A stretch of DNA of 64,000 nt, taken from contig JAQGDQ010000460.1 of NCBI GenBank assembly GCA_030141605.1, positions 118,238-182,237 of the forward strand. The letters are read 5' to 3'. Position 1 is the stretch's first letter; each line of letters starts with the position of its first letter. Below the pieces are notes generated by a model. That model did not search any database. It was not told the origin of the DNA and saw only the letters and a list, made by a program, of their open reading frames with translations. Shown one piece after another: positions 38,750 to 63,131 of this stretch. The DNA is from Tubiluchus corallicola (Eukaryota > Priapulida > Priapulimorpha > Priapulimorphida > Tubiluchidae). A program made the translations under genes and the position numbers.

Positions 38750-41700
38750 GTAAGTATAGACAGGAGAAAGTAACTGTTGCAAAGCAGCAACATCATTACC
38801 ATCACTGGCATCATCAACATTTTCATTGTCACCATCATTGGCATCATCATATCATCATCATCATCATCATCATCATCATCTCTATCATCATCATTATCAT
38901 CATTGCCATTCGTCATTTTCATCATCGTCAACATTTTCATCGTCACAATCATTGGCACCATCATCATTGTCATCATCATCATCATCATCATCATCTCTAG
39001 CATCATCATTATCATCACTGCCATTTGTCATTTTCATCATCAGTGTCATCATCATCATTGTCATCATCATCATCATCATCTCTATCATCATCATTGTCAT
39101 TCGTCATTTTCATCATCGTCAACATTGTTTTCATCATCGTCATCATAATCATCATTATCATCATCAATGTCTTTGTCACTGCACAGTTTTTTGCTTTATC
39201 TTGGTCACTACAATAGGATTATCACCTCCATCACCACCACCACCATCGTCATCATGATGATCATCATCATCATCATAGTCGTTATTTCTTTATTTCATCT
39301 CCATATTGCATTTTCTTTCGCAACTCACAATAGCGAGCGTGTCGTCTCATCTTATTTCACAAGTTGGTAAAGCAGTTTGCACAGGTTTCACTGTTTCATT
39401 ATATAATGTATACTAATGTTTATTGAGCCTGCAACATGAAGAAATAAAAACATTGATCCTGTGCATAGGATGGAGCGATTCAAACGTAGTAGGCACGATC
39501 ATACCAAGAAAAACAACACAATACAAACAAATCCACAATGATAATAAAAGCACAATTATAACAAAAGCACAGTAATAACATAAAACAACAATAGTAAGAA
39601 TTCATTTTGTAGGTTGCGAGTTCAATTTAAAGTTATTCGCTTTCCTGTATCTCTTCCCTTTTCTTACTGATGTCATATATAAAATTTATTACCATAACAA
39701 AAGCACAATACTAACAAAAGCACAATAACACAAAAACAACATTAGTAAGAATACATTTTGCAGGCTGCGAGTTCAATTTAAAGTTATTCACTATCCTGTA
39801 TCTCTTCCCTTTTCTTACTGATGTCGTATATAAAATTTATCACTAAGTTTCTCATCTCTACATCATTTAGGCCATTAATAAGCATAAACTGTTTCACTTA
39901 CAGACATTTCTGCAAAAGGAGGAAATATTTTTAGACTATTTTCAGATACAAGTTTTCTCTCATTTTGATAAGCAGGACATGTCACACAAAAATGCATTTA
40001 ATCTTCCACTTGATTCATCTCACACATTTTACATATTCTTTGGCGAGCAGATATTTTTGATACCTTCCCTTCTCAATATCCAATGTATTAATGAAAAGTT
40101 GGTATATCCAATGTATTAATGAGAAGTTGGTATATCCAATGTATTAATGAGAAGTTGGTATATCCAGTGTATTAATGAGAAGTTGGTACATCCAATGTAT
40201 TAATGAGAAGTTGGTATATCCAATGTATTAATGAGAAGTTGGTATATCCAATGTATTAATGAGAAGTTGGTATATCCAATGTATTAATGAGAAGTTGGTA
40301 TATCCAATGTATTAATAAGAAGTTGGTATATCCAATGTATTAATGAGACGTTGGTATATCCAATGTATTAATGAGAAGTTGGTATATCCAATGTATTAAT
40401 GAGAATTTGGTATATCCAATGTATTAATGAGAAGTTGGTATATCCAATGTATTAATGAGAATTTGGTATATCCAATGTATTAATGAGAAGTTGGTATATC
40501 CAATGTATTAATGAGAGGTTGGTGTATCCAATGTATTAATGAGACGTTGGTATATCCAATGTGTTAATGAGAAGTTGGTATATCCAATGTATTAATGAGA
40601 TGTTGGTATATCCAATGTATTAATGAGAAGTTGGTATATCCAATGTATTAATGAGAAGTTGGTATATCCAATGTATTAATGAGAAGTTGGTATATCCAAT
40701 GTATTAATGAGACGTTGGTATATCCAATGTATTAATGAGAAGTTGGTATATCCAATGTATTAATGAGAAGTTGGTATATCCAATGTATTAATGAGAAGTT
40801 GGTATATCCAATGAGAAGTTGGTATGTGTTATGACTGTGTTTGATGGTTAACAATACCAAAGGTGACTGTGTTTTGAAAAGCACAACGTGTAAACTTTTC
40901 ACATAGTAGGCTAAATTTTTGATTATTTTTGCTTGATGCAAAATGTACATGCAGAAAACTATACTGGGTGTTTTTATTTGTTAATGTTCTAAAAATGTTG
41001 AGTGTAGCACAAGCCAGAATGTAGCATTCAGTTGCAGGGTTTCGTATTAAACCTGACTAGTCATATGGCTACTTAATTAACAAGGAAGCAATGCAGGTAG
41101 TCGTTGATCTACGATCTACGCATCTTGCGACCGTTTCACTTTACGAACCGATGACCACTCAATTAATTAATTATACAAAACTAATTGTAACTCTTATTTC
41201 CTTCCATTTTTTCAGCAAATTAATTTTAAATCGTTATCTATTTCGATAAAATTCATCCGCAGGCACCGCCATACTTAGTGCGCGTATCTTGCGTGCAGGG
41301 GCATACCATATGCACATTAGAGGTTCGGAAAAGACTGTAGTCATAAGACTACTTGTATGGCGAATGATCAGCCAAAAACAGTTTTCTAGACCAAATCCAT
41401 TTAACGACCAGGCGCAGTGTCACTTAATTTCCTCGCATGACCACACAGATATTTCCCTTACATGAAAAGTATGACAATATTTTGTCAATAAAAATCCCCG
41501 TCCGTTTTTTTATTACTGAAGCTTATTTTTAACTTATTATTTATTCCTTTTTTACTTCTTTGTGTAGGTTTTTGGCAACACAAATGGGTAACAAATTTGA
41601 CCATTTCGCCGACGCCCTTTTTTCCAGTTTAGTCGCCCTAATACCGAACAGCGCAAAGGTGATGGCTTCATCGGGAGTCATCGCGCTCAGGTTCATCATA

Positions 41701-44583: not shown

Positions 44584-47500
44584 CTTTTTACTTATCTTGC
44601 AACACACGCACAATTATAATACAATTAATTTGGAAACAAAAATGTGAAGAAAGGGCAGCAAAAGACCAATTGGTCATCTAGTCAGCTGCCCTTTGGTTAG
44701 TCATGAACATTTTTTTATAGGCACTATGCTACAGTGTATTAGTGTTAGTACTGCTTATAATAAAAACTAAATTGTTATGAATGACATTAAATTGATATGC
44801 TTATAACGTGTTAGTACAATTCATACACAGTAATAGTAAGTGCATAATAAAAAAAATCAAACTGAAAATAACTGAAATAAAACTGAAATGAAATGAACTG
44901 AAACAAGAACTGAAATAAAAATCTGACAACAGAAACATAATAACAATGGCAACTGAAATAGACTTTATAACACAAGCATAATTCTTAGACATAAGCAAAC
45001 GAATGTATAATGGAGTCGTAATGATATCTTATAATACCTTCTTACTGTAGGGCTTTCTGGGGTTTTGCGGATCATTTCAAGGATCAGGCCGATAGGTTGT
45101 TGCAATCACTCGACGCCAGCAAACAGAAGTTACTGCAAGGTGAACTTAGTAACAGTTCAAGCACCAACTCGCTAAGCAGTGCCGGACGTGTGTCGTCTCG
45201 TTACGGTAGATCCAGTGTCAGTTCCAAGGAGAACTTGACAGGATCCGCTTCTCGGCGCCCACGAGGGAGCAGCACCAGTCGTACTATTGGTAGCCCTGCC
45301 AGCAGTGACTATGGTAATTCTTTTTTGTAAAGTTACCTTTCGGGTGTGCAATGTATTTTGTGCACATTACGTGGACTACTTGAAGAATGAGGATTTTTTG
45401 AACACGTAATTTTGGTCTTGATTGAGGCGCTGTATCTGCCTAATGTTTTGTAATGAGTAATATATATTGTAAATTGCTTTTTTTGCTTTTGTATGTGGGT
45501 TGACGCTGTTTCACTTGCACTGGTGTTTGGTTTGTTTTTTCTGCAATGTGGTGGAGTTTTATAGAGAATGTTTAATTCTGAAATTAATGCATGCGTAGGT
45601 GATGGTCGACCGGGCATGGTTCGTGCACCCCGCTCTAACAGCGCTATTGACGCCAGTGCCGTGCAACGTGCTCGAGTGAGAGCTGGCGGAGTCGGTTCAC
45701 GGTTTGAGAAGACTTCTAATTACTCTTCTTTACGTAAGTGGTCTTTGCATTAGCCGAGGAGTTGTGGATTTGTGCTGTCACTGATATTGCACTGTCGCAG
45801 CTTATCTAATGTTATTGTATTCCCTTATGTTATTTTCCGTATTGGTAAAATCATTTCTCAATGTTATGATGGTTTTTATTGATTTCAAAAGAAACTTCAT
45901 CTTTTAATTCTGGAAGATGATCTTTATATTCAGACTTGCGATTTGAAAAAAAAACATTCTGTTCATTTGCCGTTTCTTTTCCGTATCTGTTGTTTTATTT
46001 ACGATTTTTCTCATTTCTGCATCAGTGGCTTTACTTATGGCTTGTTTTGTTCTGCATGCAGAGACGGATGTTGGTGGCAAGAAAGCTGAGATTATGTCTT
46101 GCATGTAGATACAAGGTTCCATTAATACATATATGTAGAAAACTTGGCTAAGTAACGGTTAAACGATTAGCAATGTTCTAAACAGTTACACCAGTTGGCA
46201 GTTTTTTAAACAGTTAACCATATCATTTGCATAGCATGTTATGTTCTTATTTTTGCAGCTCGTTCAGCAAAGCAGGATGAACGTGGACGATCCAAAGCGT
46301 CGCATTCACAACGTAAGATGGCAGCGTTTTGTAACTTTGTGAACAAGCTGTTCTTGATCAGAGTTTACTGTTGTTCACACTTGAGAGTGCTTTTAATTTC
46401 CGGAAATCAATCTATTCTTAAACAGGGAAATTTTATTAGTAGCGAAATCTGTTAAATTGTGTGTGCATATTTTCATTCAGCTTTTTGAACATGTCTCAAG
46501 TAAGAGTTGTTAGTTATAACAATAGCAGTTTTTGCCAATTTTGATCTGTGTCTTGGCACTTATATTTATATATCTCTTAGCACTCCTTTGCACTCTTGTG
46601 TTATGCTACCAGCTGTATACAAACTCTCTTGTTTACTATGTATTTTTGCGCCGAATCTGCTTACAGAACTGGCAGAAATTCATTTCAAATTTCGTGCACT
46701 TGTTTAATACGTTGTTTTGTTTGCACAGCGGGCAGTCGGTCAAATTCGCCGTCGTCGCGCTTCAGCTACCAGACGTACACGGGCGGACCGAGCAGCGAGA
46801 GAAAACCCCGCAGGTCGGGGATACCTCGCAGCACGGGAACTAGTCGTGACAACAGCCCCAATCGTCTGAATAGTAGTTACGGCCGAGAGAGGAGACTTAG
46901 TGGCAGTACGGCATCTGGATCGCGGCCAGGCAGGGTGAACAAAAGTGAGTGGTTTATGAACAGATGATTGTCAGCGCTTGAATATGTGATCCTAGCTGAT
47001 CCTTGAACATGTGATCCTAGCTGATCCTTGAATATGTGATCCTAGCTGATCCTTGAATATGTGATCCTAGCTGATCCTTGAACATGTGATCCTAGCTGAT
47101 CCTTGAATATGTGATCCTAGCTGATCCTTGAATATGTGATCCTAGCTGATCCTTGAATACGTGATCCTAGCATGTTTGATAATTAATAGCAAGAATATTT
47201 GTTAAAAATCGCTCAATCATTTTGGTGGTTGTAATTGTCAAGACTTAAGTAGTCATAAGTCATAAGTCATTTATTTCACATTACACATTTACAATAGTTT
47301 CATGTACAATATCTAGTGAAAGCGCTTACAATGAACGTAATACAAATAAGACTGCACAGGAAAAGCCTCAAACACTGGTCACTTATATGCAAAGGTAAAT
47401 GTGTTGCGGGCAATCAAAAAGCAGGGCTTGTTAGATTGTCCCACACAGTGATAGAAAAAAAAGTAATGGAAATAATCTGAAAATTTAAAGTGAATCGTAA

Positions 47501-50500: not shown

Positions 50501-53500
50501 TTCTGTGAATTTTTGAAATGTGTGGTTTCCCCGTTTAGTGTACCGTAATTTCTGACCCATATTCTCCGAGTGCAGTTATCATGTTAACGTGGCGATGGGT
50601 TTTATTTTTCTGTTCTCGATTTTTTCCATCTCTTCTTAATAAATGGACGTACCTAAAGCTACAACTCCGTGTGAACGTAATGCATAATGCGTGATCTGTG
50701 ATCCGTAATGCGTGATGTGCATTGACTGTCTCCATCTGTCTGTAAACGCTAAGCGTATTAACAAAGCTCACGGCGCTCTTTCCACCATTTTTGATTTCGT
50801 GAAAATTGCAAGCGGTAATCTTTGGAAAACATGTCTCTGTCGAAACTTAAGCGTGATAATTACAGCTTAGCTTATTATTGTACTATTAGACCAAAAAGTT
50901 CAAAAGAAGCTCATGTTTGGGGTGTACAACATTTTGCAGGGAGGTGGGGGCACAATTTGGCAGGTATCATCATTTAGTGAAAGAACTGCAGTTAGATGCA
51001 CAACACGTAACTACATGATTCTTCCACCTCTCAAAAACTCAAATAGAAATATTATTGTTTGTAGGTCCTAAAGTGACCAAAACTCACCTAACTAGAATTT
51101 TGAGAAAGCTAAATAGCGGAAATAGTCACCGGAAACTTGAAAACTATCTAAAATCACCTAGGCAACGGCGGTTTCCCTTTTGCACATTGCTGCGTGATGC
51201 GTATTCGGACGATAGCGATCATGTTTGAATGAATACGGATTACGTGCACATGGGAGTCGTACCCTAACTCTTTTCACAGCTAAATATCCTTATATGAATG
51301 TCGCATTTTCTAATCCCAAAAGTTCTACACGTTTCTTCCCTGTTAAAAATATTTACCGTTATGTTTTCATGCAAAACAGAAAGCTGACAGAGGAGAGAAA
51401 GTGAGCAAGGTAAAGGTTTCATGAGTAGTTTTTGCTTATGGTTGTCTCTAAACACTCACTTTATTTTGCAACATGAGAACCGTCAGAGATTGTGGCTATG
51501 TATGTGTCGTTGTAAAAGGGTTGGTTTGTGACCTATGGTTTGTACAGCACATTTCTGCAAACCATTTTGCAAAGTTCCGAGAAGACATCGCGCACTTTTC
51601 ACGTAATTTTATTAATTGGGTATGAATATCTATAGCTTAAATTAGTGACTACATATGACTGCCACAAGTGCATTTAAAAATCTGGCACCATTTTGCAATC
51701 AAATGCAACCCAAAAAAATCACTCGGTTGTCATAGCAACACCAACTTTACCAATGCCCAGTCTGCATTGTGTTCTTACTTGTTGAAGCTACAAGACAACG
51801 TGTGCACGGGGCTGCATGCTACAAATACCTTAGCAACCACTGTTACAGCTAGCTGTGGCTAGACAACGCATGCACGGGGTTGCATGCTACAAATACCTTA
51901 GCAACCACTGTTACAGCTAGCTGTGGCAAGACAATGCATGCACGGGGCTGCATGATGCAAATACCTTAGCAACCACTGTTACAGCTAGCTGTGGCTTGAC
52001 AATGCATGCACGGGGCTGCATGCTACAAATACCTTAGCAACCACTGTTACACCTCGCTGTGGCAAGACAACGCATGCACGGGGTTGCATGCTACAAATAC
52101 CTTAGCAACCACTGTTACAGCTAGCTGTGGCTTGACAACGCATGCACGGGGCTGCATGCTACAAATACCTTAGCAACCACTGTTACACCTAGCTGTGGCA
52201 AGACAACGCATGCACGGGGTTGCATGCTACAAATACCTTAGCAACCACTGTTACAGCTAGCCATGGCTTGACAACGTATGCATGTGGTTGCATGCTACAA
52301 ATACCTTAGCAACCACTGTTACAGCTAGCTGTGGCAAGACAACGTATGCACGGGGTTGCATGCTACAAATACCTTAGCAACCACTGCTACAGCTAGCTGT
52401 GGCAAGACAACGCATGCACGGGGTTGCATGCTACAAATACCTTAGCAACCACTGCTACAGCTAGCTGTGGCAAGACGACGCATGCACGGGGCTGCATGCT
52501 ACAAATACCTTAGCAACCACTGTTACACCTAGCTGTGGCAAGACAACGCATGCACAGGGTTTCATATTACAAATACCTTAGCAACCACTGCTACAGCTAG
52601 CTGTGGCAAGACAACGCATGCACGGGGTTGCATGCTACAAATACCTTAGCAACCACTGTTACAGCTAGCTGTGGCAAGACAATGCATGCACGGGGTTGCA
52701 TATTACAAATACCTTAGCAACCACTGTTACACCTAGCTGTGGCTTGACAACACATGCACGGGGCTGCATGATGCAAATACCTTAGCAACCACTGCTACAG
52801 CTAGCTGTGGCTAGACAATGCATGCACGGGGTTGCATATTACAAATACCTTAGCAACCACTGTTACAGCTAGCTGTGGCTTGACAACGCATGCACGGGAT
52901 TGCATGCTACAAATACCTTAGCAACCACTGTTACACCTAGCTGTGGCAAGACAACGCATGCACGGGCTGCATGCTGCAAATACCTTAGCAACCACTGTTA
53001 CACCTAGCTGTGGCAAGATAACGCATGCACGGGGTTGCATGCTACAAATACCTTAGCAAACACTGTTACAGCTAGCCGTGGCTTGACAACGTATGCACGC
53101 GGTTGCATGCTACAAATACCTTAGCAACCACTGTTACAGCTAGCTGTGGCAAGACAACGCATGCACGGGGTTGCATGCTACAAATACCTTAGCAACCACT
53201 GCTACAGCTAGCTGTGGCAAGACAACGCATGCACGGGGTTGCATGCTACAAATACCTTAGCAACCACTGCTACAGCTAGCTGTGGCAAGACAACGCATGC
53301 ACGGGGCTGCATGCTACAAATACCTTAGCAACCACTGTTACACCTAGCTGTGGCAAGACAACGCATGCACAGGGTTTCACATTACAAATACCTTAGCAAC
53401 CACTGCTACAGCTAGCTGTGGCAAGACAACGCATGCACGGGGTTGCATGCTACAAATACCTTAGCAACCACTGTTACAGCATGCACGGGGTTGCATATTA

Positions 53501-56500
53501 CAAATACCTTAGCAACCACTGTTACACCTAGCTGTGGCTTGACAACACATGCACGGGGTTGCATGCTACAAATACCTTAGCAACCACTGCTACAGCTAGC
53601 TGTGGCAAGACAACGCATGCACGGGGTTGCATGCTACAAATACCTTAGCAACTACTGCTACAGCTAGCTGTGGCAAGACAACGCATGCACGGGGCTGCAT
53701 GCTACAAATACCTTAGCAACCACTGTTACACCTAGCTGTGGCAAGACAACGCATGCACAGGGTTTCATATTACAAATACCTTAGCAACCACTGCTACAGC
53801 TAGCTGTGGCAAGACAATGCATGCACGGGGTTGCATGCTACAAATACCTTAGCAACCACTGTTACAGCATGCACGGGGTTGCATATTACAAATACCTTAG
53901 CAACCACTGTTACACCTAGCTGTGGCTTGACAACACATGCACGGGGTTGCATGCTACAAATACCTTAGCAACCACTGCTACAGCTAGCTGTGGCAAGACA
54001 ACGCATGCACGGGTTGCATGCTACAAATACCTTAGCAACCACTGTTACAGCTAGCTGTGTCAAGACAACGCATGCACGGGGTTGCATGCTACAAATACCT
54101 TAGCAACCACTGTTACAGCATGCACGGGGTTGCATATTACAAATACCTTAGCAACCACTGTTACACCTAGCTGTGGCTTGACAACACATGCACGGGGCTG
54201 CATGATGCAAATACCTTAGCAACCACTGCTACAGCTAGCTGTGGCTAGACAATGCATGCACGGGGTTGCATATTACAAATACCTTAGCAACCACTGTTAC
54301 AGCTAGCTGTGGCTTGACAACGCATGCACGGGATTGCATGCTACAAATGCCTTAGCAACCACTGTTACAGCTAGCTGTGGCTTGTTGCTGCATGAAATTC
54401 TACACAATTTTTTTTTTACAAATATCATTACTGCACAAAATGTGCGTGTTCAGCATTCTGGTTGATATTGGTCTGTTTTGTTCAAGTTTTCAAATTATTT
54501 ACCTATTTGAGGTAAAATCTGCTGATATCTTTTGAAAAATGCTTCATTTACTGCGCAAATCAGCATAAAACACTTAATAAATTTACTCAAAATGTATAAT
54601 TTTATTTTTCTGGACAATTTTGTACCTTTTTCATAATTTTAATGTGAACTGTATGTTCAAAATAAGTGTTTGAATGAAACTGCAATTGCACTATTTGCAG
54701 TCACATGTGATACTAATAACGTAACCTACGTTAACATTCAATATTTAAATTATGCTGTTTATTTTTTACTTTTCCATATTTGTTATTTGTGAAGTAATAA
54801 CACTAATACAGATTTGACAAACTTATTTATATATCAACCATTAGGAAATCTGACATTGTTTCAGATTCCTCATTCTAACAAAAAGACCTCACCTAGGGAT
54901 AAATTAATACAGAAAAAGGTACAGGTGTGTTCAGGTGTTCTTGGGTTCATGGGTTCAACACTGTATGGTGGTGCTGCTTGTTTTGTTCACTTGTTTGTGC
55001 GTTTTTTATCTGGGTGTTGGGCATGTGGTTGCACTGGGTTGTTGTGTCACTTGTTTTTGAAGTGCATTGCATGGTAAGAAAACTGTGTTGACTTGAAAAG
55101 AAATGTGCAAAGGTTTCCGTGGTGGCATAGTTGCACATTCTTTATTGTCGTCCGTTAAATCAAAGTTCGGAGAACAAAATTACTTGTCTTCGTGCTGTTA
55201 TGTTAAGCGGCATTATGGCTCATTCACATTAGCGAGTTTTCTTGCCACGTGACTCACAAACGTGTTCAGACTAGAAAGCAAAACTTACTGTGAGTTACTC
55301 TCCGACAGTAAGCACGAGCTGACACTCACTTCTCTATTTACTGTAAGTAACTCACAAGCGTGTTCAGACTAGAGAGAGCAAAACTTACTGTGGGTTACTC
55401 TCCGACAATAAGCACAAGCTGACGCTCACTTCTCTATTCACTGCAAGAATTGTTGAGGATAAATCGCCGAGGCTTTCATACTAGACAGTAAATCAACTCA
55501 CAGTAACTGTTAGTAAGTTGCAATTTCTTACGGACAGTAACTCACAAAGCAGTTCACACTTGCGAGTTTGTTGTCAGAGAGAAAACTCGCTAGTATGAAC
55601 GCGCCATTAGTGTTGGTTGCCGAATTTGTTAGTATTTCTGATTTGTATTACTTGGGTGACAGGCATTGGAATATAGTTATAGTTTCACGACTCGTAATTA
55701 AGTCATCTTGTTTACGATATTAGCGTCCAGTTTTCTGACTAGCCACCTTGGAAGTTTCAGAACTTTTAAATGAGCCTGCTTAAATATGGAAAAGAATGCA
55801 TTGAAATGTTTAAAAAACAGTGCAATATGTGTACATCATATCATTGTGTCTTACAGGATATTAGTGAAATTGTACACTCATGTGCCAGCTCCAACTGGTC
55901 AGAGCGGAAAGAGGGTTTAATAGCCATACAGAACCTATGTCGGTTGCCTAAACCGCTTAAGTAAGTGAATTGAACACTTATGTCACCGTAAGTGTAGTTT
56001 ATGTCGTTAGTAATAAATTACAGTTTTCTAAATTTCTTTAGGACTAGATCGAGAAGACCTACTACTACTTATGCATTATGTTGTGTGCGGTTGATGTTCC
56101 AAGATTATGTTTTGTATACAATCTTTTATTCTTACTTGTCGTATAACTATGTCAGGCAAACAACCAAATCATAAAGTTGCTATTACATTAATTAAGCAGA
56201 CGTTGTTAAGTGAGAGCAAGATGAGTTAGTATAACACACAACTCATTTCTGTTGCAAATATATCATTTTTGTTCCTAATCAGTTTAATCCAGGGATGAGA
56301 ATTTTCTGCCTATACGCGGAATTCCGAGTTTCTGGAAGACCAGTAGTGCCATTTTTGTAAATCGCGTAAATTCGTTGAGGAAATTTTTACGGACCCTGTA
56401 CATTGTTTCACAAGCTGACCGCTAGTTGGCAGGCCGTCACTTTGTTTACATCACGTATATCAGTGTAACCACGTGTAGATCTCTATGTATAAAAATATAG

Positions 56501-59500
56501 AATCAATTGTGTGGAGTTATTTGAGTCAATTGCAGACAGTTTTTATATACTTTTGCATAGGAGCGGCCAGTACTTAGGTGTTTTTGACACAAAATTAGGT
56601 ATCATGTATCCTTGATAGTTGGGTATTTTTAATTATGCATGAAACAAAGTAATTGATATTTTAAATCCACTTAGAGGCTTTCTATGGTCACAAAATTGCA
56701 ATTTATTGCTGGCTCCAAGGGGGCTTTGCCCCTCATCTCCATTGGGGGCCTAGGCAGCCCCAAAACCTCTGGCCTGTTTCAGAGTTTTTTGCAATTTGTC
56801 ATTCTCATCCCTGCTTTAATCACAACATATGAAGTGTTAAATAAACTATACTTTTATTTGTTGTTATTATTTTCTAGCCGAACTGAAGTAAAACGAATTA
56901 CGGAAATTTACACAAGAATGTTCATGGACCCACACAGCAAGGTAAGATCAGTATTATGTAACAGTCAAGATGGCGTTCATGGACCCACACAGCAAGGTAA
57001 GATCAGTATCATGTAACAGTCAAGATGGTGTTCATGGACCCACACAGCAAGGTAAGATCAGTATCATGTAACACTCAAGATGGCGTTCATGGACCCACAC
57101 AGCAAGGTAAGATCAGTATCATGTAACACTCAAGATGGCGTTCATGGACCCACACAGCAAGGTAAGATCAGTATCATGTAACACTCAAGATGGCGTTCAT
57201 GGACCCACACAGCAAGGTAAGATCAGTATCATGTAACACTCAAGATGGCGTTCATGGACCCACACAGCAAGGTAAGATCAGTATCATGTAACAGTCAAGA
57301 TGGCGTTCATGGACCCACACAGCAAGGTAAGATCAGTATCATGTAACAGTCAAGATGGCGTTCATGGACCCACACAGCAAGGTAAGATCAGTATCATGTA
57401 ACACTCAAGATGGCGTTCATGGACCCACACAGCAAGGTAAGATCAGTATCATGTAACAGTCAAGATGGCGTTCATGGACCCACACAGCAAGGTAAGATCA
57501 GTATCATGTAACACTCAAGATGGCGTTCATGGACCCACACAGCAAGGTAAGATCAGTATTATGTAACACTCAAGATGGCGTTCATGGACCCACACAGCAA
57601 GGTAAGATCAGTATCATGTAACACTCAAGATGGCGTTCATGGACCCACACAGCAAGGTAAGATCAGTATTATGTAACACTCAAGATGGCGTTCATGGACC
57701 CACACAGCAAGGTAAGATCAGTATCATGTAACACTCAAGATGGCGTTCATGGACCCACACAGCAAGGTAAGATCAGTATCATGTAACACTCAAGATGGCG
57801 TTCATGGACCCACACAGCAAGGTAAGATCAGTATTATGTAACAGTCAAGATGGCGTTCATGGACCCACACAGCAAGGTAAGATCAGTATCATGTAACACT
57901 CAAGATGGCGTTCATGGACCCACACAGCAAGGTAAGATCAGTATTATGTAACACTCAAGATGGTGTTCATGGACCCACACAGCAAGGTAAGATCAGTATT
58001 ATGTAACAGTCAAGATGGTGTTCATGGACCCACACAGCAAGGTAAGATCAGTATTATGTAACAGTCAAGATGGCGTTCATGGACCCACACAGCAAGGTAA
58101 GATCAGTATCATGTAACACTCAAGATGGCGTTCATGGACCCACACAGCAAGGTAAGATCAGTATTATGTAACACTCAAGATGGCGTTCATGGACCCACAC
58201 AGCAAGGTAAGATCAGTATCATGTAACACTCAAGATGGCGTTCATGGACCCACACAGCAAGGTAAGATCAGTATCATGTAACAGTCAAGATGGCGTTCAT
58301 GGACCCACACAGCAAGGTAAGATCAGTATTATGTAACAGTCAAGATGGCGTTCATGGACCCACACAGCAAGGTAAGATCAGTATCATGTAACACTCAAGA
58401 TGGCGTTCATGGACCCACACAGCAAGGTAAGATCAGTATCATGTAACAGTCAAGATGGCGTTCGTGGACCCACACAGCAAGGTAAGATCAGTATTATGTA
58501 ACACTCAAGATGGTGTTGTTGACGGCGGTCTGTTCCGCATGACGTTGCATTTGTTACAAGGGTCATCTGATGAGGATAACATTTTTCTCTATGATCTTAA
58601 CATCAAATGTTTGAACACAAGCATGCTCAGTGCAAATTTGTGGTTTATGTGAAGCAAAAGTGTCAAAATTAACTGACCCATTCAAGAGCTGAGACTTGCG
58701 ACTTAGTAAGCCTGATGTTTTACGATAAGATGAAATTTATCATATAAAATAAGTGTTTTAAATTTGTGTACAGTCTAGCCTCGTTATCTCACCCCTCGTT
58801 ATGCCGCCAAACTCGTCTCTCGCCATAGAAAGTACCAGGACGGATTTCCTGCTTTGATATTTACCTCGTTAAGTCGCCACCCTCGCTTCTCGCCCTCGCC
58901 ACGTCATGCTAGGATGAGTGCTTATGTAAACTATATTCGTTATGTCGCCAAACAGACAAACTCAGAGGTGAATCGATCAATACATATACTTATACTTGAA
59001 CAGTCTGACAGAGTCACACGCGACGATATTCAAGGATATTTAAACGTTGTGTTGACTGCTTGCGTGTATCATCAATGAAACAGTCGTCTCTTCTGAATTA
59101 TTTCAGTCGTCAGTAACTCATTTGTGAACATTTCTAAATCTTTTGCTAAGTTTATTGCATTTCAGTGTATACTCGAAAAAGGTTTTTTTAAATAAAAAAA
59201 TAACATTCTAAGAAATTTCTATGACATTTTTTCATTTCTGATTTAATGTTGATTGGTATCCTAATGCGAAATATATTTTATATGTACGTAGAGGAACACT
59301 ATGTTAATCAACTATTATGTATATACATATAGACTAACTTTGTTATATTCCCGTTATCTCGCCATACTCGCCTCTCGCCAAAAATTTGCCCTAGACGGAC
59401 AGTGGCGAGATAACGAGGCTAGACTATATTAAAATTCAGCCAAACTTTTACTCCAGTTTTTGAAAGGAACATTTTTCGGGTCGGAAATCGTTTCCGTTGC

Positions 59501-60066
59501 TCCGTTCTTAAGAGCAAAATTATGTTAATTATCCACACTTGTTACAGGTATTTAGCATGTTCTTGGACACGGTCACAGATTTTGTACAGGTGTACAAAAA
59601 CGAGCTTCACGATTGGCTGTACATTCTGATGACGCGTCTGTTCATGAAGACAGGTGCCGAGATGCTGGGTTCGGTGCATTCCAAGTGTCAACGTTGTCTA
59701 GATGTAGTAAAGTTAGTATCGTGCTGTTTTTGTTTGTTCAAGTTTCAATTAGAATTGAAAATACGAACACAGGTCCAGAAATCAGATTCTTTTTTATTAA
59801 TTTGTCAGTGTGATTGATGTGTTGATGTTGAAACATTGTATGTCATATCAGGGCCGGCCTTAAGCATAGGCAAACTAGGCAATTGCCTAGGGCCTCACCC
59901 TCCAGGGGGGCCTGACGCCGAGGTAACATTTTTTTGCTTTATGCGAACATACTGCCTCTCTCTCTTGTATGTATGTATGTATGTATGTACGTAAATGCCA
60001 AATAGAGTAATCTCTCTCCCTCTTTCCCTCCCTCCCTCACTCACTCACTCTCTCTCTCTTGCTTTC

Positions 60067-60227: not shown

Positions 60228-63131
60228 TGCTCTCTCTCTCTCTCTCTCTGGTAAATTGCGTAATTTTATTTTTTTCGTATTTATTTTTTATTTTTCTATT
60301 TCATTTGGGGCCACCAAGTTTGCTTCGCCTAGGGCCTCCAATTACCTAAGGCCGGCCCTGTGTCATATAACTGCTTGAAACAAAGTTGTTATAAGCTTAA
60401 AAAGCCAAGAGATAAACCAGGATTCATGGACATTTAGTGATTATTCATTGTATAATATAACAAATGGAAGCAAAACAAACCTGTGGTATTTAAATGTCGC
60501 TTAACAAAGATTCTAAGAACACCTTTAATCGAAGTGAAGGTCACAGAGGTGCTTAAAGTTGAAGGTCAAACTTTTCACTTGCAAGAAATTGTAGGGTTTA
60601 TCACGAATCAGAGCCGATTAGGTAGACAATAAGATTTTGCTGTATATAAGTCAAAGGGTTAATGAGGCAGAGCAGATTGAGGTATTTTGTACAAGTGTGA
60701 CTATGGCTTCTTTGCAAGACACGGTCTGTTTGTTAGACTAGAGCAGCAGCTGTTTGGTATTTTTAAACATGATAAAGACAGGTATGTTCTTAGCTCCTTT
60801 TATATAATGTAGTCTTTTGACCTAAATTAATAATTTGACCATTATTGCAGTCTACACCTGTGAAAAATGCTCACTTTTTCAGAAGTTTGTGGGAGAGACA
60901 TCGGCCTGGTTCTTAATTTGTTGATTAGAATTAAACAAATACGTGGGAGTGTATATAGTCTAATTTGTTTTTATAGAAAAAGGTGCATAAAGCTTAAGTT
61001 TACGAGTTTTTAATTAAAATGGTTTACTGCTATTGAAATATATAAGTTAGATTAATTCTTGACTTTTAATAAAAACCGCACGACTATTTGATTAAAAGAG
61101 TGGCCACCCAAAATATAATTTATTGCAACTTACATGATTTGGCGCATTTACATTATTACTTTCTATCACAGCAGGACAACCAATTATAGATAATTATTCA
61201 CTTTATCGCATAGTTAGTACAATAAACACAGAGTACTAATGCTAGATATATAACGCGCAAATCAGCACATAACTATAAAAAAGTATTGAAAAGAGGAAAA
61301 AATAACCTAACGAATTAGGCGCATCGTATGACATTTGCTTGTAGGAATAGCAAGCGTCAAATGGTCGCCTGTACAAGGGTGACGAAGGAATTTATAACTT
61401 TAGAATGAAGCCCGTATAAATAATTCAAGGTTAACCTAATTGAACGACTCTAAGTAGATTTGCAAAGGTTGTAGGAACCGGAATAAACTAGTTTGCGATG
61501 CTGTAAATGAAAGGTCTAACAGCAGAGTAGAACTCAATCACGGGAATCCGTGACGACATCATCACTATTATTAATTTTTGCTTCATTGTCCTCTGTGAGA
61601 ATGTTTTGTTCTGTGAAGTTTACTTGCATTGTTTCTATATTGCCAACAGTAGAACTTGTCAGTTTTGTAGTTTTTTAAGCTATAATGCTTTTTTGCTGCT
61701 AGAAATTGTGATTGCAATCATGTTTACGACAAACGTTTCTTATTATCAGTAGGTGGTAATATAGTGATTAAAATTTTGTATTTTCATTACAGGGAGTCGT
61801 TTCCCTTTGATCAGCAGTTTCTTGTCATTATGAAGTTCATCACCGATCAGACACAAACACCAAATCTCAAGGTATAAAAATTGAAGCTTCTGCATTATTT
61901 GCACTTGCGTATAGACAGGCGTAGAGCGCGGGCTTCGCCATTAGACAGTTTGATGTACTTCTAACAGCTCTTCCCAGAATTCACTGCCATGCGCTTCAGA
62001 CAGACGCGAGGTTCTTACGACGCGACTGTGATAATTAAATTGGAATAGGAAAAACATCGGAGACATTTTTTTCAGCGAATTTCAATTTGCAGTTTAACCC
62101 TTTCATACCCGTTTGTATCCCGTGGGATACGAGAATATTTTCTGCCTTTAAAGTTAACAAAATTTTAAAACTGACAGTTATTTGATCTGTTAATAGTTAT
62201 TTTGATTTAAGCCAATAACAATAGACTAAAAATGGTGATAAAATGGCAAACTAGAAAATCTACATAACATAAAAAACTGCTCAAGGTACAGTACTTTAGA
62301 GACGACTTTGTACAGATCAGCATAGCGTGTATACTAAATGTCTTAAATACTTTAAAAAATTATCAGCAGTTGCAAAATGAAGCACATTTTATGCTTCCAT
62401 TGAATCCCAATGTATCCCATTGGATACAGGCTATATTTAGCACGCGGGCACAGGTAGAAAAAATAATTATGTGTAAACAAGATGGACATACTGAACAAAA
62501 TACCAAGCCAAAAATTTTTTTCTTATTAAAAAACTAATTTGGGACTAGTCAAGATTTTATCATGTACATTTGTTCGCATGAATTTTGTGATATGGATATT
62601 TCCTATTCATTTATATTTTCGTCAATAATTGGATAAACAAATGCATCGAAGGGTAGCTTTAATTTATATATACGTACTACATTTATTTGCACATACAGGT
62701 AAAAGTAGGCGTATTGAACTACCTATTGAACATCTTGGATCGTATGCAGTCAGAAGAGTTCACGAATAGTAGCGACACACGACTAGCAGTGTCCCGTATT
62801 ATCACTTGGACAACGGAACCCAAATCGAGCGAAGTCAGAAAAGTACGTACTGCCTATTTGTTGTGCAATACTAAACTTTTATTAGTTTTTTTTAATTTTT
62901 TGTTATAAGAATAATTTTTTATTTACTGGCACTGATTTATGGAAGATGTTGACATTTTAGAACACTTTGCTTACTGTATAATGTAAAGTTTGTTCCGTAA
63001 TTTTCTAGTTAGTTGTAGTAAGTAATTAGATTCTGTATTTTCAGCTGTCGCATATGACACTTATTGCTCTGTTCAATCTTAACACAGCTGAGTTCAGCAT
63101 GCTTTTATCCGTGTTACCAAAGGCTTATCAG
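38604..63131 (+). CDS. CLASP: CLASP microtubule plus-end protein (partial, 16 internal exons)
   Basis: CLIP-associating protein, a microtubule rescue factor and catastrophe suppressor acting at plus ends, kinetochores and the cell cortex. Sixteen exons join in frame over 2001 nt: most of TOG2 (exons 1-5; SQVVRESCIT, NKFDHFAD, IPNSAKVMASSGV, WPTHALERHI), a Ser/Arg-rich linker (exons 5-10) with an SxIP-type EB1-binding site (RRSGIPRSTGTSRDNSP) and the RRRYDNNYHSDDESE block, then TOG3 (exons 11-16; SNWSERKEGL, FSMFLDTVTDFVQVY, TQTPNLK, LAVSRIITWTTEPKSSEVRK). All splice phases agree. TOG1, TOG4 and the C-terminal CLIP-binding region lie outside: exon 1 starts at a normal acceptor inside TOG2, and the gene continues right of the window. 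Human CLASP1 and CLASP2 have the same order. The gene symbol is given at family level. Confidence 0.95.
38770..39290. repeat. (TCA)n-rich compound microsatellite
   Basis: About 500 bp of interrupted TCA/CAT with repeated CATTTTCATCATCGTCAACA phrases, in CLASP intron 1. His/Ser/Ile and Met/Asp frames over it are artefacts. Confidence 0.95.
39542..39841. repeat. Tandem duplication of about 150 bp
   Basis: Two consecutive copies (about 39542-39691 and 39695-39841) share CAAAAGCACAAT, TAGTAAGAAT-CATTTTG and CCTGTATCTCTTCCCTTTTC. The second copy is continuous with the LINE remnant to the right, so the duplication covers the LINE 3' end. Confidence 0.75.
39640..40076 (-). mobile_element. LINE ORF2 C-terminal remnant (CCHC finger)
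   Basis: On the - strand the frame reads EKGRYQK, ISARQRICKMCEMNQVED, then HFCVTCPAYQNERKLV and a diverged tail (INGLNDVEMRNLVINFIYD). The C-x2-C ... H-x4-C motif with CPAY is the zinc-knuckle ending found in many LINE reverse transcriptases. Two stops and one frameshift show it is dead. The 26-bp minisatellite begins exactly inside this coding sequence. Confidence 0.65.
40077..40822. repeat. 26-bp minisatellite, 28 copies plus a shortened one
   Basis: Unit TATCCAATGTATTAATGAGA + AGTTGG repeats with exact 26-bp spacing from 40077 to 40804, then one 18-bp remnant copy. Units differ by single substitutions only. Located in CLASP intron 1 and derived from the adjoining LINE remnant. Confidence 0.97.
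40830..41567. other. CLASP intron 1, 3' part
   Basis: No element or gene recognised besides the TTTACTTCTTTGTGTAG acceptor of the next exon. Confidence 0.3.
41568..41703 (+). CDS. CLASP: CLASP exon 2 (TOG2)
   Basis: Encodes FLATQMGNKFDHFADALF, SSLVALIPNSAKVMASSGV and IALRFIIQ; strongest CLASP signature in TOG2. Donor CAG|GTAAGC. Confidence 0.96.
42120..42190 (+). CDS. CLASP: CLASP exon 3 (TOG2)
   Basis: 71 nt, acceptor TTCTTTTACAG, donor AG|GTATAT. Encodes HTLSPKLVPLLVSQLSSKSK and EIR. Confidence 0.93.
42311..42772. mobile_element. hAT-like MITE, 462 bp
   Basis: Termini CAGGGATGAGAAT at both ends in inverted orientation; the interior closely matches 56290-56813 (TACGCGGAATTCC, AGACCAGTAGTGCCATTTTT, TTTGTTTACATCACGTA). 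The target duplication is not preserved here. CLASP intron 3. Confidence 0.8.
42912..43360. mobile_element. pogo/Tc1-like MITE, 449 bp
   Basis: Termini CAGTCAACCCTCGTTAAACC and (right, reverse-complemented) CAGTCGACCCTTGTTAAACC with TA on both sides. The frame 43115-43363 inside it is not transposase. CLASP intron 3. Confidence 0.88.
43700..43975. repeat. 92-93-bp tandem repeat, 3 copies
   Basis: The phrase CATCATGTCTACTAACCC recurs at 43749, 43842 and 43934 with CTTCTTCCTATCCC and TTTCATTCACTCATTC in each unit. The frame at 43753-44088 is a repeat artefact. Confidence 0.9.
43976..44150 (+). mobile_element. LINE 3'-end-like segment
   Basis: Ends TGGAGTGAAATAAATTGATT GATTTGATTTGA, i.e. a polyadenylation-like motif and a short (ATTG/ATTTG) tail as in CR1-like non-LTR elements. 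No coding part recognised. Confidence 0.4.
44298..44435 (+). CDS. CLASP: CLASP exon 4 (TOG2)
   Basis: Encodes QCAEMLDQMLHTWPTHALER, HIAALQEAIKKGISDADPDA and RVHSR; acceptor CTTTATTTTTAG, donor CG|GTAATA. Noticeably GC-richer than the flanks, as expected for a constrained exon. Confidence 0.96.
44538..44700 (-). mobile_element. (AAT)n microsatellite with LINE 3'-UTR-like flank
   Basis: AAT repeats (44538-44583), followed on the right by sequence that on the - strand reads GGGCAGCTGACTAGATGACC and runs into the repeat, like a retroelement 3' end with a simple-repeat tail. CLASP intron 4. Confidence 0.4.
45051..45313 (+). CDS. CLASP: CLASP exon 5 (end of TOG2, linker)
   Basis: AFWGFADHFKDQADRLLQSL completes TOG2 (human: YWGF-HF). 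A Ser-rich disordered linker follows (GELSNSSSTNSLSSAGRVSS, SASRRPRGSSTSRTIGSP). Donor TATG|GTAATT. Confidence 0.95.
45599..45733 (+). CDS. CLASP: CLASP exon 6 (linker)
   Basis: Encodes MVRAPRSNSAIDASAVQRAR and VRAGGVGSRFEKTSNYSSL; corresponds to the RSRSDID-AAA segment of vertebrate CLASPs. Acceptor ATGCGTAG is pyrimidine-poor. Confidence 0.9.
46259..46312 (+). CDS. CLASP: CLASP exon 7 (linker, 54 nt)
   Basis: Encodes RSAKQDERGRSKASHSQ, matching the GRSRAKVVSQSQ region of vertebrate CLASPs. 54 nt and symmetric phase 1, so it could be skipped without a frameshift (alternative exon candidate). Confidence 0.9.
46729..46944 (+). CDS. CLASP: CLASP exon 8 (SxIP linker)
   Basis: 216 nt, phase 1 on both sides. 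Ser/Arg-rich; contains RRSGIPRSTGTSRDNSPNRL, the EB1-family-binding SxIP motif with basic flanks and the conserved CLASP SR-x-SP tail. Donor AAAA|GTGAGT. Confidence 0.93.
46978..47170. repeat. 25-bp minisatellite, about 7.7 copies
   Basis: Unit TTGAATATGTGATCCTAGCT + GATCC, single substitutions only, starting 34 bp after the exon 8 donor in CLASP intron 8. Confidence 0.97.
47255..47480 (-). mobile_element. Non-LTR 3'-end-like segment
   Basis: AAGTCATAAGTCATAAGTCA followed by TTTATTTCACATTACACATT looks like a reverse-oriented retroelement tail plus 3' UTR. No coding part. The remainder of intron 8 (to 48072) shows nothing recognisable. Confidence 0.4.
48073..48155 (+). CDS. CLASP: CLASP exon 9 (linker)
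   Basis: Encodes PSGNANVLAQRELIPGKESE and TALHDAL, matching the DVEEAVADAL segment of vertebrate CLASPs. Acceptor TTTTTTATTTAG, donor CTG|GTAAGC. Confidence 0.92.
48311..48802. mobile_element. hAT (Charlie-like) MITE, 492 bp
   Basis: Termini CAGGGGTGTGCAAATT in inverted orientation, perfect 8-bp duplication ATTTAACC (48303-48310 and 48803-48810). GCGGGCCGC-rich ends as in Charlie-type hAT elements. The copy at 63157-63656 is in the opposite orientation. CLASP intron 9. Confidence 0.93.
49340..49400. repeat. Perfect 25-bp inverted repeat (hairpin)
   Basis: Arms 49340-49364 and 49376-49400 are exact reverse complements with an 11-bp loop ATATAGATATA. Preceded by GTAATAATAAACTTTATTG, like a retroelement tail junction. 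In CLASP intron 9. Confidence 0.85.
49401..50082. other. CLASP intron 9, plain stretch
   Basis: AT-rich, no exon or element recognised. Confidence 0.3.
50085..50332. mobile_element. MITE with sub-terminal repeats, 248 bp
   Basis: Termini TAGGTTTTACATGTCAAATG and (reverse-complemented right end) TAGGTTTTACAAGTCAAATG flanked by TA. The interior repeats the TCAAATGTAGAC motif on both strands at least six times. Superfamily unassigned. It ends 41 bp before the next exon. Confidence 0.8.
50374..50490 (+). CDS. CLASP: CLASP exon 10 (linker)
   Basis: 117 nt, phase 0. Encodes TRKGAGRRRYDNNYHSDDES, ETSSICSERSFGSYTRGSD; vertebrate CLASPs have ARRRYESYG-HSDDD-SDASSACSERS here. Acceptor CTTGTTTGCAG, donor GAT|GTAAGT. 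Confidence 0.96.
50491..51780. other. CLASP intron 10, 5' part
   Basis: No exon seen. 50670-50720 has an imperfect short repeat (CGTGATCTGTGATCC, AATGCGTGATG). Confidence 0.35.
51785..54382. repeat. 68-bp minisatellite, about 38 copies
   Basis: Unit contains GCTAGCTGTGGCAAGACAAC, GCATGCACGGGGTTGCATGC and TACAAATACCTTAGCAACCA. Most copies are 68 bp; three (near 53475, 53866, 54115) lack about 20 bp. Marker variants recur 815 bp apart (52261 and 53076), i.e. twelve units minus one base, showing higher-order duplication. In CLASP intron 10. Confidence 0.97.
54383..55215. other. CLASP intron 10, between repeats
   Basis: AT-rich; the frame at 54814-55077 lacks exon borders or family similarity and is not called. 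Confidence 0.3.
55216..55606. mobile_element. PIF/Harbinger-like MITE, 391 bp
   Basis: Termini TGGCTCATTCACATTAGCGA and (right end reverse-complemented) TGGCGCGTTCATACTAGCGA with a TTA target duplication on both sides (55213-55215, 55607-55609). The interior has an imperfect tandem duplication of about 110 bp (GTGTTCAGACTAGA ... GTTACTCTCCGACA). Confidence 0.8.
55857..55960 (+). CDS. CLASP: CLASP exon 11 (start of TOG3)
   Basis: Encodes DISEIVHSCASSNWSERKEG and LIAIQNLCRLPKPLK, aligned with EVLNRCASSNWSERKEGL of human CLASP. Donor TTAA|GTAAGT. Confidence 0.96.
56290..56813. mobile_element. hAT-like MITE, 524 bp
   Basis: Second copy of 42311-42772 with CAGGGATGAGAAT termini and a near-perfect 8-bp duplication (GTTTAATC / CTTTAATC). 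It carries an extra block near 56690-56750 absent from the other copy. CLASP intron 11, ending 64 bp before exon 12. Confidence 0.88.
56878..56941 (+). CDS. CLASP: CLASP exon 12 (TOG3)
   Basis: 64 nt; acceptor TTATTTTCTAG, donor AAG|GTAAGA. Encodes RTEVKRITEIYTRMFMDPHS K, equivalent to ELKRLCEIFTRMFADPHGK of human CLASP. Its last 21 bases and its splice donor are the seed of the 55-bp array that follows. Confidence 0.96.
56921..58515 (+). repeat. 55-bp minisatellite built from a coding exon end and its splice donor, 29 copies
   Basis: Exact 55-bp spacing from 56921 (inside CLASP exon 12) to the last unit at 58461. Each unit holds the 3' end of exon 12 (TTCATGGACCCACACAGCAA G), the donor GTAAGATCAG and the first intron bases to ATGGCG. 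Variation is limited to a few positions (ATT/ATC, CAGT/CACT, GGCG/GGTG, one CGTGG in the last copy). No indels. Only the first donor keeps the CLASP frame into the next exon. Confidence 0.98.
58771..59426. mobile_element. pogo/Tc1-like MITE, 656 bp
   Basis: Termini CAGTCTAGCCTCGTTATCTC and (right, reverse-complemented) TAGTCTAGCCTCGTTATCTC, TA on both sides. It also has internal CTCGTTATGCCGCC and CTCGTTAAGTCGCC repeats of the terminus. The frame at 58854-59078 is not transposase. CLASP intron 12. Confidence 0.88.
59548..59711 (+). CDS. CLASP: CLASP exon 13 (TOG3)
   Basis: Encodes VFSMFLDTVTDFVQVYKNEL, HDWLYILMTRLFMKTGAEML and GSVHSKCQRCLDVV, close to human CLASP (VFSMFLETLVDFIQVHKDDL). Donor AAA|GTTAGT is weaker than the others. 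Confidence 0.97.
59849..60360. mobile_element. hAT-like MITE, 512 bp, with a CT microsatellite inside
   Basis: Termini CAGGGCCGGCCTTAAGCATA / CAGGGCCGGCCTTAGGTAAT with perfect 8-bp duplication TGTCATAT (59841-59848 and 60361-60368). The interior is a (CT)n tract at about 60010-60250 that yields Leu/Ser-only frames. CLASP intron 13. Confidence 0.93.
60369..61792. other. CLASP intron 13, remainder
   Basis: No exon, RNA gene or mobile element recognised. Confidence 0.3.
61793..61871 (+). CDS. CLASP: CLASP exon 14 (TOG3)
   Basis: Encodes ESFPFDQQFLVIMKFITDQT and QTPNLK, matching ESFPNDLQFNILMRFTVDQT of human CLASP. Acceptor TTTTCATTACAG, donor AAG|GTATAA. Confidence 0.97.
61872..62698. other. 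CLASP intron 14
   Basis: No exon. 62095-62140 (TTAACCCTTTCATACCCG) looks like one end of a piggyBac-type element (TTAA then CCCTTT), but a matching second end was not found. Confidence 0.3.
62699..62842 (+). CDS. CLASP: CLASP exon 15 (TOG3)
   Basis: 144 nt, phase 0. Encodes VKVGVLNYLLNILDRMQSEE and RLAVSRIITWTTEPKSSEVR, nearly identical to vertebrate CLASP at the latter. Donor AAA|GTACGT. Confidence 0.97.
63045..63131 (+). CDS. CLASP: CLASP exon 16 (TOG3)
   Basis: 87 nt, phase 0. Encodes LSHMTLIALFNLNTAEFSML and LSVLPKAYQ (human: LISLFELNTPEFTMLLGALPK). Donor CAG|GTAAGT. The gene continues beyond the window. Confidence 0.96.

Follow-up and report, generated by a model that had tools for sequence, protein, structure and literature searches.

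The DNA analysed here is a 64,000-nucleotide stretch of the Tubiluchus corallicola genome (contig JAQGDQ010000460.1, positions 118,238 to 182,237 of the forward strand; 35.8% G+C, no N), referred to below as the window. It carries a minisatellite in which the end of a coding exon is repeated together with its 5' splice site, or donor. The gene hosting this array is identified by homology as an orthologue of CLASP, as had been proposed in a preliminary description of the window. Six exons on the + strand (55857-55960, 56878-56941, 59548-59711, 61793-61871, 62699-62842 and 63045-63131), joined through the first donor of the array and bounded by AG acceptors and GT donors, give one open frame of 642 nt, in which one joint reads ...PKPLN|RTEV. 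The encoded peptide matches TOG3 of CLASP2 (CLIP-associating protein 2, PDB 3woz) over 214 residues with an E value of 2.4e-87. A search with the same peptide returned 96 proteins in a public set. The informative names among these are CLIP-associating protein, cytoplasmic linker associated protein or TOG-domain protein, and many of the matches are unnamed or carry uninformative names.

The exon from which the array starts is 64 nt long (56878-56941) and belongs to TOG3. It follows the acceptor TTTTCTAG, ends in DPHSK and is closed by the donor AAG|GTAAGA, and its last 22 nt form the beginning of the array. A 22-residue peptide from this exon, whose first residue differs from the final exon model, matched 3woz with an E value of 7.6e-5. 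The exon upstream (55857-55960, DISEIVHSCASSNWSERKEG..., acceptor ACAG, donor GTAAGT) aligns to 3woz at the start of TOG3, and the next exon downstream (59548-59711, VFSMFLDTVTDFVQ..., acceptor TTACAG) aligns to it right after DPHGK. Across the joint 56941/59548 the sequence DPHSK|VFSMF aligns without gaps to DPHGKVFSMF of 3woz. The introns flanking the 64-nt exon measure 917 and 2606 nt, the latter being 1066 nt when counted from the last donor copy.

Seven of the 19 aligned proteins run through the K|VF joint from the preceding exon. Three of them (P0001, P0002 and P0005, all unnamed) have an extra R at this point, two (P0003, from a bat, and P0010, unnamed) have about 23 extra residues, and two (P0006, from a sea urchin, and P0007, CLIP-associating protein 1/2) have nothing inserted. 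Since CLASPs differ here by no residue, by one R or by about 23 residues, the joint looks alternatively spliced elsewhere, and it is probably an old intron position. A tblastn search of the intron containing the array found no homologue of the 23-residue segment of P0003 and P0010 (best E value 0.097, the known next exon set aside). Donor 1 (56942-56947) thus lies at a joint common to other CLASPs, and 28 more copies of exon end and donor follow it, as first described.

Tandem Repeats Finder (TRF) reported the array at 56920-58517, with a period of 55, 29.1 copies, 97% matches, 0% indels and a score of 3014. By direct count AAGGTAAGA occurs 29 times on the + strand of the window, always inside the array, and the distance between successive occurrences is exactly 55 in 28 out of 28 cases, in agreement with the spacing and copy number given earlier. 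This regularity is far beyond chance. The array proper, 56920-58514, consists of 29 complete head-to-tail units of minisatellite size that are approximately 97% identical. Each combines the last 22 nt of the exon (56920-56941 in the first unit) with 33 nt of intron including the AAG|GTAAGA donor. The anatomy of exon end, donor and intron thus stands as first described, with 22 exon bases instead of 21 and a span of 56920-58514 instead of 56921-58515.

Direct comparison of the 29 units revealed eight distinct sequences that vary in only four of 55 columns: T/C at position 36, G/C at position 45, C/T at position 55, and an A>G change at position 5 that is private to the last unit. The donor sequence is invariant through to copy 29 at 58482-58487. 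Purifying selection on the donor copies was considered as an explanation. The three variable columns common to several units all lie in the intronic half, but as there are only three such sites the argument was given no weight. The copy number comes from a single assembly, and an assembly artefact, with a true copy number of one or a few, is a conceivable alternative. This appears highly improbable, since a looped or collapsed assembly is an unlikely source of eight different unit sequences that follow one another with no clear period, in a window containing no N. Among 11 lags tried for periodicity of the unit variants, the lowest shuffle fraction was 0.05 at lag 9, which is not significant for 11 tests. 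The predicted RNA fold of five units is not better than that of shuffled sequences (z +1.47; 187 of 200 shuffles equal or better), Rfam gave no matches at gathering score across the window, and the array core has no exact match in either the viral_contigs or the genome_contigs set.

The consequences of using each donor were deduced by translating all 29 products. Donor 1 yields the 64-nt exon and is the only one that leaves the reading frame open. Donor 2 adds 55 nt and leads to a stop almost immediately in the next exon, whereas the products of donors 3 to 29 each contain an in-frame TAA at 57014-57016 on the + strand. This codon had been assigned to the third unit; it lies in unit 2 (56975-57029). 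Nine of the 28 later donors (donors 4, 7, ... 28) add a multiple of three nucleotides, yet these too cross the TAA of unit 2. The expectation that later donors give frameshifted or truncated messages, 55 not being a multiple of three, is therefore borne out for all 28, every one of which results in a premature stop.

The array donor is also a strong one. It ranks second among 13 CLASP donors both by a simple matrix (6.85, the maximum being 8.65) and by U1 pairing energy (-9.5, compared with -14.0 for the best). Of all 3807 + strand GT sites, 34 reach or exceed its score, and 29 of these lie within the array. Furthermore, donors 2 to 4 would end exons of 119, 174 and 229 nt; because these are ordinary sizes, exon length alone does not rule them out.

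Minisatellites that span an exon end and its donor are already known from the human genes CBS and IFI6, the latter with a repeat unit of 12 bp, and the present array is a further case in another gene and another animal. Like them it is a head-to-tail repeat of minisatellite size (29 units of 55 bp), and its unit holds a coding exon end, assigned by homology, together with a 5' splice site (22 nt of exon plus GTAAGA). The variable number tandem repeat (VNTR) of CBS is given in PMC2630376 as a 31-bp repeat, c.1444_1467+7(16_21), at the boundary of exon 13 and intron 13, with single-base differences between units. Read from this name, a unit comprises 24 nt of exon end and 7 nt of intron, so that the donor is repeated as in CLASP. 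The review PMC5188458 terms the same repeat non-coding, which conflicts with the name, and the CBS anatomy used here is read from the name only. Unit lengths of 31 and 55 bp both leave 1 modulo 3, and single-base differences between units are found in both arrays. The two differ in unit length, in copy number (16-21 in CBS, 29 in CLASP) and in the gene affected. Intronic VNTRs more generally are described as possibly influencing splicing (PMC2915984).

For IFI6 (6-16, G1P3) the minisatellite is titled as giving multiple splice donor sites (Turri 1995) and is cited for interfering with splicing (PMC3618361); PMC2572611 cites it as well. A pair of downstream repeats is said to function as donors, so that three mRNAs are made (PMC4526556). 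The repetition of a splice donor by a minisatellite is shared with CLASP. The mRNAs of IFI6, however, are presented as isoforms, whereas by translation the later CLASP donors give a stop without exception.

The premature stops and the strength of the array donor, as judged by both matrix and U1 pairing energy, could suggest a tunable poison device. A regulated share of transcripts would then use donors 2 to 29 and decay, with copy number or splicing factors setting the level of CLASP. Human CBS is consistent with such an effect, as activity is reported to fall with more units at the exon 13-intron 13 boundary (PMC5188458), and a table in PMC1395315 likewise places this repeat at exon 13-intron 13 and lists activity as down. 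However, the stops do not point to design, because most random short donor duplications would also produce them, and in minigenes it is the upstream donor that wins (PMC9225289). We therefore regard a poison device as unlikely. Doubtful, too, is a copy-number dial, in which each unit would be a further strong U1 site that diverts more pre-mRNA to decay or holds U1 near the exon. Should such a dial exist, an array of fast-changing length would set CLASP dose between individuals.

We consider it probable that the array is an exon-spanning minisatellite in a working CLASP gene in which donor 1 dominates and no more than a leak is lost to decay. U1 could bind each donor copy in the pre-mRNA. As both flanking introns are long, the 64-nt exon would be recognised across itself, and donor 1, being closest to the acceptor of the exon, would win. 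Use of donors 2 to 29 would lead through a premature stop to nonsense-mediated decay, and the most the array would therefore do is weigh on CLASP expression in a length-dependent way.

This reading is supported by data from human genes. Human introns above approximately 250 nt go with exon definition, and where two donors are near-equal the upstream one is favoured (PMC9225289). Both introns flanking the array exon exceed 250 nt, even when counted from donor 29. Five minigenes, each carrying a pair of identical CAG/guaagu donors and introns of 365 nt, were spliced exclusively from the upstream donor (PMC9225289). By analogy, donor 1 of the CLASP array would be expected to dominate, with a leak of some size. 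Since minigenes with two identical donors used the upstream one only, a decoy or poison device is unnecessary for the gene to work.

Several observations weigh against the dominance of donor 1. Its use is deduced from genomic DNA, the copy number comes from one assembly, and the minigene evidence is human and concerns two donors instead of 29 (PMC9225289). In the same source, events not matched for donor strength show a preference for the downstream donor in about 60% of cases, and downstream units are said to act as donors in IFI6 (PMC4526556). CBS 844ins68, like the CLASP array, is a short segment with a splice junction that is repeated in tandem next to an exon. The gene tolerates it since splicing strongly prefers one of the copies (PMC2630376); unlike what is proposed here for CLASP, however, it is the more distal of the two that is said to be favoured (PMC2630376).

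The later copies might also act without being spliced. U1 bound to them could boost recognition of the 64-nt exon or block early intronic polyadenylation, U1 having a role in suppressing early polyadenylation. The array offers 29 identical donor-like U1 sites, and engineered U1 particles bound 3' of a donor have been reported to correct exon skipping (PMC4822034). On the other hand, the acceptor of the 64-nt exon is already rich in pyrimidines and its donor is strong, and a helper function of this kind seems very improbable.

A further conceivable role is a ratchet, or re-splicing, in which donor 1 would be spliced to a later CAAG, so restoring the normal message and mending the use of a wrong donor. 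AG|GT recurs at the identical place in every unit, and because the exon part of each unit ends in CAAG|GT, any such removal would leave the same joint. An interior unit contains five AGs; the sequence before them, however, has a pyrimidine content of 29-53%, compared with 59-76% at 12 CLASP acceptors. By this simple measure the region from -20 to -4 of the unit AG|GT, at 53% against 59-76%, lacks the polypyrimidine tract of recursive splicing. Furthermore, an intron of 55 nt is near the minimum size. We find this proposal barely credible, and donor 1 dominance in a working gene remains the preferred reading.

The array has been suggested to have been born by slippage between microhomologies, but the left and right breakpoints have only 4 bp (TGTT) exactly in common. 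In gapped comparisons, the similarity of the left flank to the unit tail was equalled by 18%, and that of the right flank to the unit head by 80%, of 5000 random pairs taken from 40000-62000. The argument is thus weak, as similarity beyond the 4 bp is no better than in chance pairs. The founder unit probably spanned, by chance, the 3' end and the 5' splice site of this short CLASP exon. When four founder units were dropped at random on 40000-64000 with 13 exons in 50000 trials, a donor was covered in 7% of them and an exon edge of any kind in 14%. The set of 13 comprises the exons that were visible, some set by eye, and a fuller gene model would raise both values. A founder spanning a donor is therefore an unremarkable coincidence.

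The first duplication probably occurred by slippage, and unequal exchange or slippage during replication would then have enlarged and homogenised the array. Among the units, the variants at positions 36 and 45 occur in every one of their four possible combinations. Identical neighbouring units number five against a shuffled mean of 6.8, neighbours being no more alike than in shuffled orders. Together these two observations fit exchange or repeated slippage.

The region of the gene is rich in minisatellites, and TRF found 28-bp, 25-bp and 68-bp arrays near the 55-bp array. The 28-bp array (40076-40813) has 26 copies with 96% matches. The 25-bp array (46977-47171) has 7.8 copies and begins 33 nt past another CLASP donor (46944), the donor itself being excluded. 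The 68-bp family (51791-54384), in an intron of the same CLASP gene, amounts to about 38 unit lengths, also takes 48-, 116- and 251-bp forms, and its units carry the near-palindrome TGCTACAGCTAGCTGTGGCA.

Elsewhere in the window, eight open reading frames of at least 100 amino acids on the + strand between 2774 and 22437 resemble by eye intronless G protein-coupled receptors, some of them partial. The frame at 2774, the one used for a search, has seven distant protein matches with Pfam 7TM domains, with a top identity of 33% over 38% of the query. In viral_contigs, two stretches fitted a pattern for CLASP relatives and none was confirmed.

The CLASP array provides a natural test of donor choice, with 29 identical strong donors in steps of exactly 55 nt, all but the first of them unproductive by translation. 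Near-exclusive use of donor 1 would back exon-centred proximity beyond the human system in which it was tested. If later donors are used, the array would reveal the extent to which a conserved cytoskeletal gene can put up with unproductive splicing.
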